The notes under the pieces were generated by a model, which did no database searches, was not told where the DNA came from, and was given only the letters and a program-made list of their open reading frames with translations. Position numbers and translations under genes: made by a program. A stretch of DNA of 38,525 bases from Acidobacteriales bacterium 13_1_40CM_3_55_5 (GTDB lineage Bacteria; Acidobacteriota; Terriglobia; Terriglobales; Acidobacteriaceae): NCBI GenBank assembly GCA_001918935.1, contig MNGW01000102.1:1-38525 (forward strand), written 5' to 3'. Each line of letters starts with the position of its first letter. Within the stretch, counting starts at the first letter, position 1. This document shows positions 20,573 to 31,545 of the stretch, in pieces.

Positions 20573-21049
20573 GTGGCCAAAACTTTAGAAAACGTGCTTT
20601 CTGTTTATACCCACAAGCTCGAAGGCCAAAGTATAAAAGTCGAAAAAATATGGGAAGCGGAAACCGAAATTCAGGCACTGGCGGGCGAAATCCGGCAAGT
20701 CTTCTCTAATTTGATTGCGAACAGTATTGACGCTATGCCTCGGGGTGGAACGCTGACCTTGAAGGTTTCGAAGTCCCACGATTGGGGGAACGGAAACCGG
20801 CGCGGAGTCCGCGTAGTGGTTGCCGATACCGGTTCAGGTATCGCTCCCGCACAACAAAGCAAGTTGTTTGAACCTTTCTTTACCACCAAGCGCGATGTTG
20901 GCACCGGTCTCGGCTTGTGGGTGTCCAGGAGTATCGTTCAGAAACACGAGGGGTTCATTCGGGTCCGTAGCAATGTTCGGCCAGGAAAAAGCGGCACCGT
21001 ATTTTCAGTATTCTTGCCCGAAAGCAAACCCGCATCAGTTGCGGCGTGA
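20573..21049 (+). CDS. Histidine kinase HATPase domain, apparently lacking a dimerisation/H-box domain
   Basis: EIRQVFSNLIANSIDAMPRGGTLTL, VVVADTGSGIAPAQQSKLFEPFFTTKRDVGTGLGLWVSRSIVQKHEG; GTG start at 20573 with no HisKA upstream. Confidence 0.8.
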   Translation: MAKTLENVLSVYTHKLEGQSIKVEKIWEAETEIQALAGEIRQVFSNLIANSIDAMPRGGTLTLKVSKSHDWGNGNRRGVRVVVADTGSGIAPAQQSKLFEPFFTTKRDVGTGLGLWVSRSIVQKHEGFIRVRSNVRPGKSGTVFSVFLPESKPASVAA

Positions 21050-23298: not shown

Positions 23299-24915
23299 CT
23301 AGGGCAAGTGATCGATATAGCAAAGCACATTCACAAAGTCAAAGAACTCATCCATATCTGGCTGCGCCGCATCGCGCAGGGTCAAGCTGGTAAGGCCGAA
23401 CCGTTTTTCGATGAGTTTAAGAATTGAGGTGTAGTCCCTTGGAACGTGGGAGACGGAATTCTTGTTGGCGAATGGCGAGACCAGGATCATCGGAACTCTG
23501 AATCCCGTATAGTCGAAATCGCAAGTTGGCGCGGTCGCATTCTGATAGCAAATGTCAGGGTTGGGAGGGCCGGCTAGATCGGAAGGCGGAGTGATATCCG
23601 GCTTCACCGTAGTCATGGGCGGAACATGATCATAGAAACCGCCACCTTCATCCCAGGTAAGTATGAAAACCGAGTCGCTCCACGACGGACTTTTCATCAA
23701 GCCATTGATAAGAGAGGAGACGTACTCAGCCCCCTTCTGTATATTCCCGCCGGGGGTATTGGCTGCGGGATGTTCATCGGTACCACTGGCATATCCGGGC
23801 TCAATCATCGCCACTTGCGGCAAGGTGCCATTCGCCGCGTCAGTCAGGAATTGCGAAGCCGGCACGATGTTCTGCAGACCTGGACCCTGCGCGTACGTGA
23901 ACATGCTAAACAGGGTTCCGCCGAGCGGATGGGGGTTGCCGAAAGAGTCCGAAACATACACCTTCCAGGAAATCTTGTTTTCGTCCAAAAGCTCAAAAAT
24001 AGTCTTATTGGTAAGTCCTGGTGACCCTTTAGGCAGCAGATAGACGTGCCCAGCCGATGTGCCTGCCATCAGGTACATTCGATTCGGTTGGGTACGGGTC
24101 ATGACCGGTGAAAACCACTTATCCGAGGTAGCGAAATTTGTTGCCATAAAATAGTAATAGGACAGCGCGGTCGCGTCGTAATAGCCCATCGCTCGCGTGC
24201 CGCCAGGATCAAATCCGCCGTTGGAAGGGTCATCCTTGGAAGAGATGTAGACAAATCCATCCATAAGAGCCGTGGCCGAGGGCGTGTTGTGCAAGTTGTA
24301 ATCGGTGTGACTCTCATTCCATGATGGGCTCTGATTTTCCACGCATACGCTATTCATGAGAAACGGAGTCACGATGCTCAATCCATCCGCGCTCGGGTTC
24401 GACGCGTTGGCTGGGGTTCCATCCACATCCGGAGGCAAATTGTAAGGTGGAGCAGTGCGATAGCCGTTCAAATGACCAAAGTAGTGATCAAATCCACGAT
24501 TTTCCTGAACCATGAAAATGATGTGATTGATGGATTGCAGCGATGCTACCGTGGTGCCGAAGCTGGCAGTTACGGATTGAGCGCCCGTCGTCGGGAGAGT
24601 GCAAGCACCGGTGCCGGTGCACGCGCCACTCCATCCGGCGAAAGTGAATCCAGTAGCCGGAGTCGCGTTTAATGTCACTTGAGTTCCGGCAGAAAAAGTT
24701 TGACTGCAAGTTTTGCCGCAGTCGATACCGGCGGGAGTGCTCGTCACAGTACCACTTCCAGAACCCGACAGAGTTACGGTGACCTGAACTGGATTTGGCG
24801 GCGGAGGCGGGGCCGGCGGCGGGGTGGAAGTGGAACTTCCTCCCCCGCAACCCGAAAGCAACAATATTGACAAGAAAGCAGCTAATCCCCCGGAGAATGT
24901 GCAAAAGAATCGCAT
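23299..24915 (-). CDS. Phosphoesterase family (phospholipase C/acid phosphatase-like) lipoprotein with N-terminal divergent InlB-like repeat
   Basis: SINHIIFMVQENRGFDHYFGHLNGYR, FILTWDEGGGFYDHVPP, VPMILVSPFANKNSVSH; N-terminal GTVTSTPAGIDCGKTCSQTFSAGTQVTLNATPATGFTFAGWSGAC. Confidence 0.9.
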   Translation of the reverse strand: MRFFCTFSGGLAAFLSILLLSGCGGGSSTSTPPPAPPPPPNPVQVTVTLSGSGSGTVTSTPAGIDCGKTCSQTFSAGTQVTLNATPATGFTFAGWSGACTGTGACTLPTTGAQSVTASFGTTVASLQSINHIIFMVQENRGFDHYFGHLNGYRTAPPYNLPPDVDGTPANASNPSADGLSIVTPFLMNSVCVENQSPSWNESHTDYNLHNTPSATALMDGFVYISSKDDPSNGGFDPGGTRAMGYYDATALSYYYFMATNFATSDKWFSPVMTRTQPNRMYLMAGTSAGHVYLLPKGSPGLTNKTIFELLDENKISWKVYVSDSFGNPHPLGGTLFSMFTYAQGPGLQNIVPASQFLTDAANGTLPQVAMIEPGYASGTDEHPAANTPGGNIQKGAEYVSSLINGLMKSPSWSDSVFILTWDEGGGFYDHVPPMTTVKPDITPPSDLAGPPNPDICYQNATAPTCDFDYTGFRVPMILVSPFANKNSVSHVPRDYTSILKLIEKRFGLTSLTLRDAAQPDMDEFFDFVNVLCYIDHLP

Positions 24916-25057: not shown

Positions 25058-25730
25058 ATGGCTTTAAGGGCATCCGCACGAAAGATTCTTCTCAGGCTGT
25101 TTATCGGTCTCGCGGTGGCCTATCTACTTTTTGCCGGCTACATTTTGTGGACCATGCATCAGCCGCCGGAAACCTTCGGACGCGTGATGTCCAAGATGCC
25201 GGACGCCGCTTATTTAACAGACAGGTGATCCTGCGCCGGATTTCTCACTCTTAAAGTTGGATAAGAGCGATAAGGTCCAGCTCTCAGCTCTAAGCTCGCG
25301 GCAGCCCGTGGTTTTGGTCTTCGGCAGCTATACTTGACCTCCATTCCGGCGGGAGGTTCCTGCCCTCAACACACTTTACGACGAGTACGGGTCGCAAGTC
25401 GCCTTTCTCATCGTGTATATCCTGGAAGCCCATCCGACCGACGTGTGGCAGAGCGAGAGCAACATAAAGGAAAAGATCGTCTTTGCCAGTCCGAAAGATT
25501 ATCAAGAGCGAGAGTTTGTGGCAGGCAGTTGCGTTCGCAAATTGGGAATAAAGTTTCCCGCTGTGCTCGATGGATTCGACAACTCAACCGAGAAAGCCTA
25601 CACCGGCTGGCCCGATCGTATTTATTTGATCGATAAGCAAGGGCGAATCGCCTACAAGAGCAAGCCCGGACCGTTTGGATTCAAGCCGGAGGAGCTAGAA
25701 GTCGCGCTCAAGGACATCGCAGCTCATTAG
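25058..25730 (+). CDS. Candidate selenoprotein: membrane-anchored deiodinase/redoxin-like protein with in-frame TGA (25335-25337) and an N-terminal frame break near 25216-25228
   Basis: MALRASARKILLRLFIGLAVAYLLFAGYILWTMHQPPETFGRVMSKMPDAAYL // QTGDPAPDFSLLKLDKSDKVQLSALSSRQPVVLVFGSYT-[TGA]-PPFRREVPALNTLYDEYGSQVAFLIVYILEAHPTDVW...ACVRKLGIKFPAVLDGFDNSTEKAYTGWPDRIYLIDKQGRIAYKSKPGPFGFKPEELE (the ORF track shows only 25413-25730). Confidence 0.8.
25348..25364 (+). promoter_or_regulatory. Candidate bacterial SECIS hairpin
   Basis: GGCGGGA-GGT-TCCTGCC: 7-bp stem (one G-U pair), GGU apical loop beginning 18 nt after the last base of the TGA. Confidence 0.55.
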
Positions 25731-25803: not shown

Positions 25804-26793
25804 ATGAACGAGATACAAAAGCCGATTTTCTTGATGCTAGTCGCGCTTACATGGTCGTGCTTCGCGACGGCAGAACTCCGGTACGGTCGTTCTTGTGACG
25901 CCCATACACCTTTTGATATTCCCGTCGACTCGACGTATGGCTGAGGTGAGTAGACTGCACTTTATTGCAAAGTTTCCTCGTTCTTCCGGTGACTTTTTGT
26001 TCACAAATAGGAGCTCCAAGCCGGTCGTCAGCGTGCTGGCTGTTGTAGAGCTAAGAGATCAGCAAGGGCAATATATGTTTAACATGCTGTTTCACGCGTT
26101 CAAGTTCAAGGCCTATAGAAGGGATACCTCGCCTTCTTCCCCTGGGTACCAGCGCAAGAAGCGATCCAATTTGATCAACCTGTAATGCCTGGAGCGAAAG
26201 AAACTTGGTCGATGTCAAGCTCGTCTTTTGTCGCGGATTGTCCGACCAGCGCGCATGCCAGCTTTGTCCAGATTCAATTTGGCGATGGCTCGGTCTTTGA
26301 GCACTCAGATGCCGACGCGCGCCGACAACCCGTGGTTATGGATGCAAGTACCATGGATTTTCGCCAGGCGCCATTCTCTCCACCGTTCGAGGTTGTGGCG
26401 ACGCTCGAAATCGACGCGCTCGGACGCCCATCTGTTGCAGATGCTGGATTTGCCTCTGATGACTTTATACGGTAGCTCGAGGCTCGGGTGGAAAAGTGGG
26501 AATTCGCGCCGGCTTATTCCGGTGAAACTGCTGTGCCCGGTAAATTGCAAATTCTTTTTCGCTTCCACAAAGATACTCCGGCACAGTACTCGACAGTGGC
26601 GAAAATGCCGAACGCAGGCGTATTTGAGGTCGCCGATATTCTTCCACCCAAGCCGGGCAGGCGGCTTTCGCGGGTGTACCTTGGAGGGGTGACTGTCACA
26701 CTAGCCACTGGCCACTACTTTGCCTGTGTGATCGCTCCTTGCGACGCCGAAGATACGAGTGCTGCATACTTTGCAAACACACCGCTTGCGTAG
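25804..26793 (+). pseudogene. Secreted protein of unknown function, multiply disrupted
   Basis: Signal peptide MNEIQKPIFLMLVALTWSCFATA; then frame +1 AEVSRLHFIAKF...AYR; then original frame GYLAFFPWVPAQEAIQFDQPVMPGAKETW...DDFIR-TAG-LEARVEKWEFAPAYSGETAVPGKLQILFRFHKDT. Confidence 0.65.
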
Positions 26794-28388
26794 CGCGGTT
26801 CAGGAGTTTTCCACTCCGCTAATCGCTGACGCAGTGCAGCATCGCTGAGTTCAACTTCGAGCACCCGCTGATTCACGTCAATGTGAATCGTATCGCCCTC
26901 GTGCAGGGCGGCGATCGGACCACCCAGCGCGGCTTCGGGCGATAGATGACCGATCATCAGGCCGCGGGTTGCGCCGCTGAAACGGCCATCGGTGAGCAGA
27001 GCAACACACTCGCCCAGTCCTTCGCCGACAATCGCCGCAGTAACCCCTAACATCTCGCGCATTCCAGGCCCGCCTTTCGGACCCTCATTGCGGATGACGA
27101 CAACATCGCCGGCCTTGATGCGCTTGGTGGTGACCGCACTCATGGCAGCTTCCTCGGAGTCAAACACGCGAGCCGGCCCGCGATGACTGAGACGTTCGTG
27201 GCCGCTGATCTTGGCCACGCATCCCTCAGGCGCGAGATTGCCGTGCAGAATGACCAGTCCGCCCGTGGCCTTCAAAGGATGGCTCACCGGAGCGATGACC
27301 TGCTGTCCCGGAGTTTCTTTCGCAGCGTTAGCTTCTTCCGCGAATGTGCGTCCGGTGACCGTAAGAGTAGAGCCATCGGCGCAATGGCAATCCAGCAGGC
27401 GTTTGGCGATGAGCGGAATGCCTCCGGCCTTATCGACGTCGGCGGCTACGAATCGTCCTGCCGGCTTCAAGTCAGCAAGCAGCGGAGTGCGTTCGCTGAC
27501 TTTCTGGAAATCGTCCATCACTAATGTCACTCCGGACTCGCGCGCAATCGCCAACAAGTGCAACACCGCATTGGTCGATCCGCCAGTGCAGGCTACGCCT
27601 GCGATTGCATTCTGAAATGCAGCGCGGGTCAAAATATCTTTCGGACGCATGCCCCTCTTGAGCAGATCCAAAACAATCTCTCCGCAGCGGAAGGCCACTT
27701 CATCTTTACGCGAATCCATGGCAGGCACACCGTTGAACCCCATGGGTGAAAGACCGATCAACTCCATCACGGTGGACATTGTGTTTGCGGTGTATTGCCC
27801 GCCGCACGCGCCCGAGCGGGGGCAGGCGACATTTTCCAGATCTCGCAACTCCGTGTCGGTTATTTTTCCCGCCGCGTTGGCGCCAATGGCTTCGAAGACA
27901 TCTTGGATGGTGACGTCCTTGCCGCGATAATTGCCCGCGGCGATGGTGCCGCCGTATAAGACCAGCCCGGGAATATTCAGACGGGCAAGCGCCATCGCTG
28001 CCGCTGGGATTGTTTTGTCGCATCCCACAACGCACACCAGTGCGTCGAACATCTGTCCGCGGCAAACTAGTTCGATGGAGTCGGCGATAATTTCGCGGCT
28101 GACCAGCGACGCTCTCATTCCTTCCGTCCCCATGGTTTCGCCGTCACTGATGGCGATGGTGTTGAACTCCATAGGCGTGCCTCCAGCGGCGCGAACGCCC
28201 TCCTTCACCTTGCCCGAAAGCCTGCGCAGGTGAAAGTTGCAAGGCATGGTTTCAATCCAGGTGTTGGCGACACCGATCAGAGGCTTGCTGAGATCGCTAT
28301 CCGTGAAACCAATCGCCTTGAACATGGCGCGGGCTCCAGCCCGTTCACGTCCGTCGGTAATACCACGACTGCGATGTTTGAGATCCAT
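26715..28388 (-). CDS. ilvD: Dihydroxy-acid dehydratase
   Basis: [77 protein letters not shown]. Confidence 0.97.
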
Positions 28389-28457
28389 GGGAGGAAGATT
28401 ATGACAGAGGAGGAGGCAAAAAGAAGAACCCGGCGTTCAAACAAACTCGTGACAGCC

Positions 28458-28781
28458 CTATGCCATAGCCGCTCGGGTCGCCCGGTTTGAAATTGCCGCG
28501 GATGATGGTGGATGGGGCGTGGCGGTCCAATCGCCAGCGACCTGGGTAATGTCTTCAGGAGCACCAGCGCGGACATCCGTCACGTCCACAATGGCATGCC
28601 AGTCGCGGCAGAGCTGACCTGTTTGCTTGGGATTCACATCCAGCAGCAGCGTGACGTTATGCGTGTGCTCCAACGCATCGGCCTGGACATAAGGCAGGTC
28701 GAGCCCGCGCCGAGAGACGGCGTTCAGAATGCGCATCAGCGTGCCCTGCGTGTTGCGATAGCGAATGTGAAAAACCTGCAT
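28458..28781 (-). CDS. ilvM: Acetolactate synthase small subunit-like ACT protein
   Basis: QGTLMRILNAVSRRGLDLPYVQA ACT-type sequence; sits between ilvB and ilvD on the same strand. Confidence 0.75.
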   Translation of the reverse strand: MQVFHIRYRNTQGTLMRILNAVSRRGLDLPYVQADALEHTHNVTLLLDVNPKQTGQLCRDWHAIVDVTDVRAGAPEDITQVAGDWTATPHPPSSAAISNRATRAAMA

Positions 28782-28811
28782 AGCTCTCTCCTTGACCGAA
28801 AACCCGCAAAC

Positions 28812-30506
28812 CTAATCTTCTTCGAACATCATTTCCGATAGCGCCGCTCCCGATGGCACCATGGGGAAAACGTTCGCTTCCGGTTGACAATCAAAAACCA
28901 GCAGCTCCGGCTCAGGCGATTGCAAGAAGCGATCGAGCACGTCCGCGGTTCCGGACGCGACCGGGAATTCGCTCATTGCTTCTTCCGAGACGCGTTGCGC
29001 ATGAATCTTGTAAGCCTTGGCGATGGTAACGAAATCCGGATTGTCGCTTAGATCAGTCTCCGCATAATTGCGTTTGTAGAACAGCTGCTGCCACTGACGC
29101 ACCATGCCGAGATATTTGTTATCCACGATGACCAGCTTGAGAGGTAATCCCAGCCTGTGGACGGTCGCCAGTTCCTGAATATTCATCTGGAAGCCGCCGT
29201 CACCGGAGACACAGAGCACCGTGGCATCTGGTTTGGCCAACTGAACTCCAACCGCGGCAGGTAAGGCGAAACCCATCGCGCCTAAACCTCCCGAAGTAAT
29301 GAATCCTCGCGGAGACGACGAACGATAACGCTGGGCCGCCCACATCTGGTGCTGACCCACATCGGCGACAATGATGCTGTCCTTGGGAAGGCGGCTGAAA
29401 AGTTCGTCCAGAAAACGGATGGTTGGCTGAGCCAACCCTCGAGGATCAAGTTCGGCGCGCTCCGCCCCACCGGCCACAGCACGCCAGTCGCTCCAGTTGG
29501 GCAAAGAAACGCGGGAGACAGCCTGATGAAAAGTGGGAATAGTTTCCGCCAGATCCCCAATGACAGGAAGCTCACAGGCCCGTACACGGTCGAGCTGTGC
29601 CGGATCAATTTCAAAGTGCACGATGCGAGCTTGCGGAGCGAAGCGCGACGGATCTCCGGTCACTCGATCGTCAAGCCTGGCGCCGAATACCAGCAGCAGA
29701 TCGGTTTCGTGCAGCGCCAGATTGGCCGCGCGCGTACCGTGCATCCCCACCATGCCGAGGTAATAGGGCGCGTCGGGCGGAACTGCGCCCAGCCCGTGCA
29801 CAGTCGCAAACGTGGGAATATTCAGATCATCCAGCAAACGCCGTAATTCCGGAATTGCACCCGAGAGCTTCGCACCTGCCCCCACCAGGGCTACCGGTTT
29901 CTTGGCTTGTTCAAGCAGTGCGATCAACGTTTCGGAGGAACTTGAACCAGTGTGAACATCTGCCGGCTTGGCATGGGGAGTAAACTTCGCCGGTCCGCGA
30001 AATTCCATCGTAGCCTTCAGCAAATCGACCGGGAGATCGAGCACAACCGGACCGGGACGTCCACTGCGCGCCCAGTGGAATCCCTGCGCGATGACTTCAG
30101 GAATCTCTTCAATAGAGCGGGCCAGGCAGCTCCACTTGGTGAGGGAAAGCGTGAGGCCAAAGACATCGGTTTCCTGAAACGCGTCTGTACCGATCAGACT
30201 GCTTCGTACTTGGCCAGTGATGCACACCAGGGGAACTGAATCCATCTTGGCGTCAGCGATTCCCGTCACGAGGTTGGTCGCACCTGGTCCGCTGGTCGCG
30301 ATGGCAACGCCCACTTTGCCGGTAGTGCGAGCGTATCCCTCAGCGGCAAATACAGCGCCTTGCTCGTGTCGGGTGAGGATGTGCCGGATTCCGCTGCCGT
30401 CAAGCGCGTCGTACAACGGCATAATCGCGCCGCCGGGATATCCGAACACCAGGTCCACGCCCTCGGCCCGCAGACACTGCAAAACGATGTCAGCTCCTCT
30501 AAGCAT
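28812..30506 (-). CDS. ilvB: Acetolactate synthase large subunit
   Basis: [71 protein letters not shown] (ThDP motif). Confidence 0.96.
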
Positions 30507-31545
30507 TTACGACCTTCGCCTCTGGCTTCTGAGTGGAACCGGACTTCTTCGCTTCTTTGGGCAGCCATGACATCATGGCTCGGAGGCGAGTTCCGACTTC
30601 TTCAATCGAATGCCGTTTCTCGCTTTCACGCAGAGCGGCAAAATTGCGGCCGCCTTTCTTGTTTTCGTCAATCCACTCGCGGGCAAAGCTGCCGTCTTGA
30701 ATGCGCGCCAGGATTTCTTTCATGGCAGTACGAGTGGAATCCGGCACCACCTGTGGGCCACGAGTAAGATCGCCGTACTCAGCCGTATTTGAGATGGAAT
30801 CGCGCATCCGCGCCAGCCCCCCCTCGTAGATAAGGTCGACAATCAGCTTCATCTCATGCAGGCACTCAAAGTAGGCGACCTCGGGCTGATATCCGGCCTC
30901 GACCAGGGTTTCAAATCCCTTCTTGATGAGCGAAGTCAATCCGCCACAGAGGACGGCTTGTTCTCCGAACAGATCACTCTCCGTCTCTTCTTTGAAAGTG
31001 GTTTGCAGAACTCCGGCGCGGGTCGAGCCAATTCCGTGGGCGTAGCAAAGCGCGTATTCCCGGGCGCGGCCACTGGCATCCTGGTGGATGGCAAGCAGGG
31101 AAGGAACGCCGCGGCCCTCCGTATAAATACGGCGCAGCAGATGACCGGGACTCTTGGGCGCGATCATGACCACGTCCACATCTTTCGGCGGAACGATAGT
31201 CTTGAAGTGAATACTGAAGCCATGAGAAACGCCAAGTATCTTTCCTGGGCGGAGTGCTGGCTTGACTGCGGATTCGTAGAAGTCGCCCTGAGTCTCATCG
31301 GGCGTGAGAATCTGAATCCAGTCCGCGCGCTCCGCCGCTTCGGCTGGAGACACGACTAAGAGCCCGTCAGCCTTTGCCAGTTGCGCGCTGGGTCGTTTGG
31401 GATCGAGGCCGACCACAACGTTGTAGCCGCTGTCGCGCAAATTTTGCGCTTGCGCATGTCCCTGGCTACCGTAGCCCAGAATTGCGATCACTTTGCCCTT
31501 TAGGGCGGCGGGGTTGGCATCGTGCTCATAGAAAACAGTCGCCAC
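30499..31545 (-). CDS. ilvC: Ketol-acid reductoisomerase
   Basis: [64 protein letters not shown] start preceded by GGAGAG. Confidence 0.96.

Follow-up and report, generated by a model that had tools for sequence, protein, structure and literature searches.

Selenocysteine (Sec)-containing, deiodinase-like bacterial proteins with a bacterial SECIS element were described from the Sargasso Sea by Zhang et al. (2005; PMC1088965), and reviews tabulate the bacterial deiodinase-like family with a UxxC motif (PMC9312934, PMC13188914). A 2006 survey of bacterial Sec use counts selenoproteins of Acidobacteria, with no deiodinase mentioned (PMC1794560). In the literature searched, with subscription papers outside the search, no work joining deiodinase-like selenoproteins with Acidobacteriota was found, nor any mention of an N-terminal anchor or of a wide occurrence of such proteins in this phylum. 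Within these limits, the Acidobacteriota clade carrying the motif U-PPF seems to be undescribed.

The window, i.e. the whole stretch of DNA that was analysed, comprises 38,525 nucleotides of Acidobacteriales bacterium 13_1_40CM_3_55_5 (GCA_001918935.1, contig MNGW01000102.1). Translation of frame 0 revealed a sequence that stays open between 25218 and the stop codon TAG (25728-25730), the TGA at 25335-25337 being its sole interruption. The product of 170 residues reads QTGDPAPDF...VVLVFGSYT-U-PPFRREVPALN...ALKDIAAH. Taken as a whole, the evidence makes it highly probable that the locus belongs to an Acidobacteriota family of Sec-containing, deiodinase-like proteins and that 47 or 50 linker bases are missing from the window copy. 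The features are collected in Table 1.

Table 1. Features of the redoxin locus in the window
Feature	Position	Strand	Basis or remark
Basic N-terminal stretch with membrane segment (MALRASARKILLRLFIGLAVAYLLFAGYILWTMHQPPETFGRVMSKMP...), frame 2	25058..25228	+	stops at TGA 25226-25228; not in the frame of the catalytic domain
Linker remnant, 34 nt	25190..25223	+	DNA alignment and comparison with the linkers of 82 relatives
Deiodinase-like catalytic domain (thioredoxin fold), 170 aa, frame 0, containing the in-frame TGA	25218..25730	+	
Sec (UGA) codon in FGSYT-U-PPF	25335..25337	+	TGA in 107 of 108 loci covering the column
Predicted SECIS hairpin GGCGGG-AGGUU-CCUGCC, apical loop AGGUU	25348..25364	+	RNA fold, covariation, synonymous-codon constraint
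EAHPTDVW (deiodinase-type EAHxxDxW motif)	25425..25448	+	corresponds to EAHPSDGW in the alignment with DIO2/DIO3
Cys codon at U+65 (residue 105), candidate resolving Cys	25530..25532	+	invariant in 35 aligned relatives; proposed role

In computed comparisons, the catalytic domain was matched by the Pfam family T4_deiodinase (PF00837) with 105.3 bits (gathering cut-off 27; 4e-30), which exceeds the scores of AhpC-TSA (45 bits) and Redoxin (43 bits). The same family was matched by all 35 members of the alignment. The best solved structures by sequence were those of DIO2 and DIO3, and both FGSYT-U-PPF and EAHPTDVW aligned with the deiodinase motifs. The AlphaFold2 model (pLDDT 83.6, pTM 0.82) found DIO2 as its top fold match in the PDB (E 2e-11), followed by ResA, and DIO3 was also among the matches. 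The score for NCBIfam NF038285 (deiodinase_rel) was 195.6 bits, below the curated cut-off of 250; the intact relatives, with 191-206 bits, were also below it. As judged by sequence and predicted fold, the window protein belongs to the deiodinase-like redoxins.

In order to evaluate the TGA, its codon column was read in 110 homologous loci, all from Acidobacteriota and including 80 named loci that were fetched. The column was occupied by TGA in 107 loci and by TGC in one (L151), while two contigs begin downstream of it. The loci are partly redundant across the collections, and 94 distinct 45-nt sequences were counted. With Cys put in for U in the protein query, 21 of 61 genomes around the window's own were matched, and 16, the window genome included, carried exactly one internal TGA; in the 15 other relatives' genomes, with identities of 40-80%, the TGA lies in the same column. 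A search of 396 genomes of the phylum matched 17, all except one with a single TGA. From the class, 299 genomes were sampled and 94 were matched, most of them with exactly one TGA; the stop-free matches were long frames of 480-600 aa or partial ones in which the column was not covered. About a third of the sampled class genomes thus carry the gene, almost always in its Sec form. No relatives were found in viral contigs.

The original prediction placed an in-frame TGA at the catalytic Sec/Cys position of a Sec-encoding redoxin and proposed to check that column of the homologs for U or C, and the 107 TGA codons against one Cys codon bear it out. Since the same TGA recurs in 107 of the 108 covering loci, chance or a nonsense mutation is ruled out as its explanation. 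As is expected of a bacterial selenoprotein, an in-frame UGA was found at a functional position that is occupied by U or C in the homologs. On this comparative evidence, the computed assignment of TGA 25335-25337 is that of a genuine Sec codon. The Cys form of L151 reads FGSYSCPNF and is located at the C-terminal end of a protein of 591 aa that contains TPR-like repeats. A paralog, L028, also has TGC at the Sec column.

The stem of the computed SECIS element begins after 10 nt 3' of the UGA. Across the relatives, the hairpin follows the consensus GGCGGG-AGGUU-CCYGCC with compensatory changes. When 30 distinct sequences were compared, double changes were found at four of the six pairs of the stem, and the covariation score of 0.255 (0.102 in shuffles) was reached by none of 500 shuffles; it fell once the pairing partner was slid. 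Two stems are rewritten on both sides with the AGGU loop kept, namely GTCACC-AGGTG-GGTGAC (L019) and GTCGCC-AGGTG-GGCGAC (L020). Codon constraint was evaluated over 74 columns with a conserved residue, measured against the gene's own codon use, and the strongest departures were located at U+7, U+5, U+4, U+8 and U+6 (1.70 to 0.70 bits, median 0.09). The hairpin of the window copy alone gave -11.1 kcal/mol (z -1.0), which is not significant against shuffles, so the case for the SECIS rests on comparison. The most distant members (L148-L156) depart from this exact stem register. An Rfam scan of the window returned no match, and a model of such a SECIS is not expected there. Judged by its covariation and codon constraint, the hairpin after the TGA is a bacterial SECIS. 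In four loci (L109, L112, L124 and L136), the assembly stops, a contig starts or an NN gap lies at this hairpin, probably because the stretch is nearly identical between co-occurring species.

The original prediction also proposed a search of the parent genome for the Sec machinery, which was largely recovered. SelA (C89, 481 bits), SelB (C46, above cut-off) and SelD (C43, above cut-off) were computed to be present, whereas a search of the assembly (74% complete) yielded no tRNA-Sec (selC); the hits of that search turned out to be ordinary tRNAs. A tRNA-Sec above cut-off was detected in 19 of the 21 genomes tested, a same-genus genome among them, although one of these 19 matches (G018) reaches only 49 bits and could represent an ordinary tRNA. 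ARAGORN reported tRNA-SeC(tca) in all five loci scanned, including L055 of the window's genus. At the place syntenic to that of selC in the same-genus genome no tRNA was found, and synteny breaks about 120 nt before it. The missing tRNA-Sec may most simply be attributed to incompleteness of the assembly.

Six loci (L127, L130, L133, L137, L142 and L143) have selB on the strand of the redoxin gene and upstream of it. This arrangement links the redoxin gene to Sec use and is silent on the substrate. SelD of the window genome (L161, G000 C43) is a selenoprotein itself, with an in-frame TGA in ...SVKAAG-U-ASKLSP, at the usual Sec/Cys position of SelD. An Acido-Lenti-1 RNA was located near selA in the same genome (L163:4846-4891).

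The span 25058-25730, as originally given, did not prove to be one open frame. The ATG of the anchor is at 25058 in frame 2, which stops at the TGA 25226-25228, whereas frame 0 cannot be extended upstream beyond the TAA 25215-25217. In the relatives, the membrane segment, the linker and the catalytic domain are all in one frame. Their linker, measured from the membrane segment to the GDxAPDF strand without counting the G of GD, is 81 or 84 nt long in 82 relatives (27-28 residues, ...FLxxPFETLWTxARAGxL...), always in one frame. The window copy is without 47 or 50 nt of it, which results in a net frameshift and leaves the copy FRAMESHIFTED, its anchor being read in another frame than the catalytic domain. 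A plausible start codon that would lie in frame ahead of the Sec codon and preserve the first strand was not found in this copy. Because the deletion shifts the frame, the copy as assembled cannot make a working full-length anchored protein. The membrane-anchored form that had been proposed therefore holds for the relatives and not for the window copy as assembled. In the 105 residues after the Sec codon, only one deviation at conserved columns was found, the other 80 sequences ranging from 0 to 5; since there is no decay past this codon, the loss of the linker is either recent or an artefact.

The window copy is thus either a recent pseudogene or the product of an assembly deletion, within a family in which Sec is real. 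We lean towards a genuine recent pseudogene, a reading to which the net-frameshift deletion, the broken neighbouring ORF and the lack of an in-frame start before the Sec codon that would retain the first strand all point, even if its remaining codons are undecayed. It is also quite conceivable, if somewhat doubtful, that the gene is intact in the organism and that the 47- or 50-base gap is an error in assembling the metagenome bin. An assembly error would agree with the undecayed catalytic domain, Sec codon and SECIS, with their single deviation at conserved sites, and other bins have indels of their own in the linker region of the gene (L067, L096) or are interrupted at the SECIS (L109, L112, L124, L136). 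It agrees less well with the downstream gene 25804-26793, which is also broken across frames, as would fit a decaying region, and with the intact state of the nearby ilvD, ilvB and ilvC.

Another reading is that of a decayed pseudogene without Sec, in which the TGA would have arisen from a Cys codon by an ordinary nonsense mutation. The frameshifting deletion and the failure to find a tRNA-Sec in the assembly speak for it, and the deletion partly touches the pseudogene caveat raised at the outset. However, the column holds TGA in practically every intact relative with a long open frame, and with the covarying SECIS downstream and SelA, SelB and Sec-SelD in the genome a nonsense mutation is very improbable. 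A programmed frameshift joining the anchor and catalytic ORFs at AGG-TGA (25223-25228), where slippage by +1 on the frame-2 TGA would lead into frame 0 at GAT CCT, can practically be discarded, as there is no conserved slippery element and the linker of the 82 relatives is constant at 27-28 residues in one frame, that of the window being simply shorter, with residues missing.

Regarding the neighbourhood, no conserved neighbour was found as a clue to function, except selB upstream (the six loci above) and ilvD downstream (five loci besides the window). Convergent ilvD, ilvB and ilvC genes and a small ilvN-like ORF occupy 26715-31545 (-) of the window, and this ilvD synteny is common to L064-L067 and L073. 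The next ORF downstream of the redoxin gene, 25804-26793 (+), lies between it and ilvD and is broken over at least two frames, with a signal-peptide-like start (MNEIQKPIFLMLVALTWSCFATA). None of its three pieces had a Pfam match, the middle piece had no relative in 60 related genomes, and L064 and L065 have no such gene at this place. Upstream, a HATPase_c piece corresponding to a histidine-kinase C-terminus was located at 20573-21049 (+), with a GTG start and between two response-regulator ORFs; it is possibly a truncated kinase. The gene at 23299-24915 (-) encodes a phosphoesterase-family protein that carries a divergent InlB B-repeat domain at its N-terminus.

For the Sec family as reconstructed from its intact members, SelB bound to the hairpin just 3' of the UGA would bring Sec-tRNA to the ribosome, and the UGA would be read as Sec. 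The intact product would have an N-terminal membrane anchor followed by the deiodinase-like thioredoxin-fold domain. What follows on the topology, on the substrate and on the part played by U+65 is inferred. The basic N-terminus and the positive-inside rule (N-in, C-out) suggest that the catalytic domain is probably periplasmic. The selenolate would most likely reduce a peroxide, a disulfide or a similar electrophile, a halogenated substrate being a further candidate, and the Sec could then be regenerated with the help of the invariant U+65 Cys or of an external thiol. The intact protein would accordingly be a periplasmic, membrane-anchored selenol peroxidase or disulfide reductase. A far bolder proposal, which we consider rather unlikely, is that soil Acidobacteriota possess, throughout the lineage, a membrane-anchored selenoenzyme of the periplasm whose animal-type active site (U-PPF and EAHxxDxW) serves to dehalogenate iodinated or brominated aromatics reductively. 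If this were true, the family would be a bacterial functional counterpart of the thyroid deiodinases.

The results extend the deiodinase-like selenoproteins, so far mainly known from marine sources, to a phylum of the soil. With Acidicapsa dinghuensis (L142), these bacterial cousins of the deiodinases become open to functional testing in a cultured carrier. It should also be considered that standard annotation cuts such Sec genes at the TGA.

Compared with the bacterial deiodinase-like selenoproteins of Zhang et al. (2005), the Acidobacteriota family is alike in its PF00837 match, in the Sec within a thioredoxin-fold active site, in the SECIS right after the UGA, in the occurrence of Sec and Cys forms and in the presumed redox role. 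It differs from the UxxC tabulated for the bacterial family in having U-PPF, with no Cys at +3. In the case of NF038285 ('deiodinase family protein'), the C-terminal half of the model aligns with the whole catalytic domain, and its N-terminal half is unmatched. With ResA and the AhpC-TSA oxidoreductases, the family shares the fold (ResA 1su9, E 1.2e-10) and the layout of a membrane-anchored extracytoplasmic redoxin. On the other hand, ResA has a CxxC where a single Sec without Cys at +3 is found here, and the match by sequence is weaker (45 vs 105 bits). The animal enzymes DIO1-3 resemble the family in FGS-x-T-U-PPF, EAHxxDxW, the N-terminal membrane anchor and the fold (PDB 9h48, 4tr3). In contrast to them, the Acidobacteriota family, known here from sequence, has no known iodothyronine substrate, most of its members carry Tyr instead of Cys at U-2, and its bacterial SECIS lies in frame, while that of the animal genes is in the 3'UTR.
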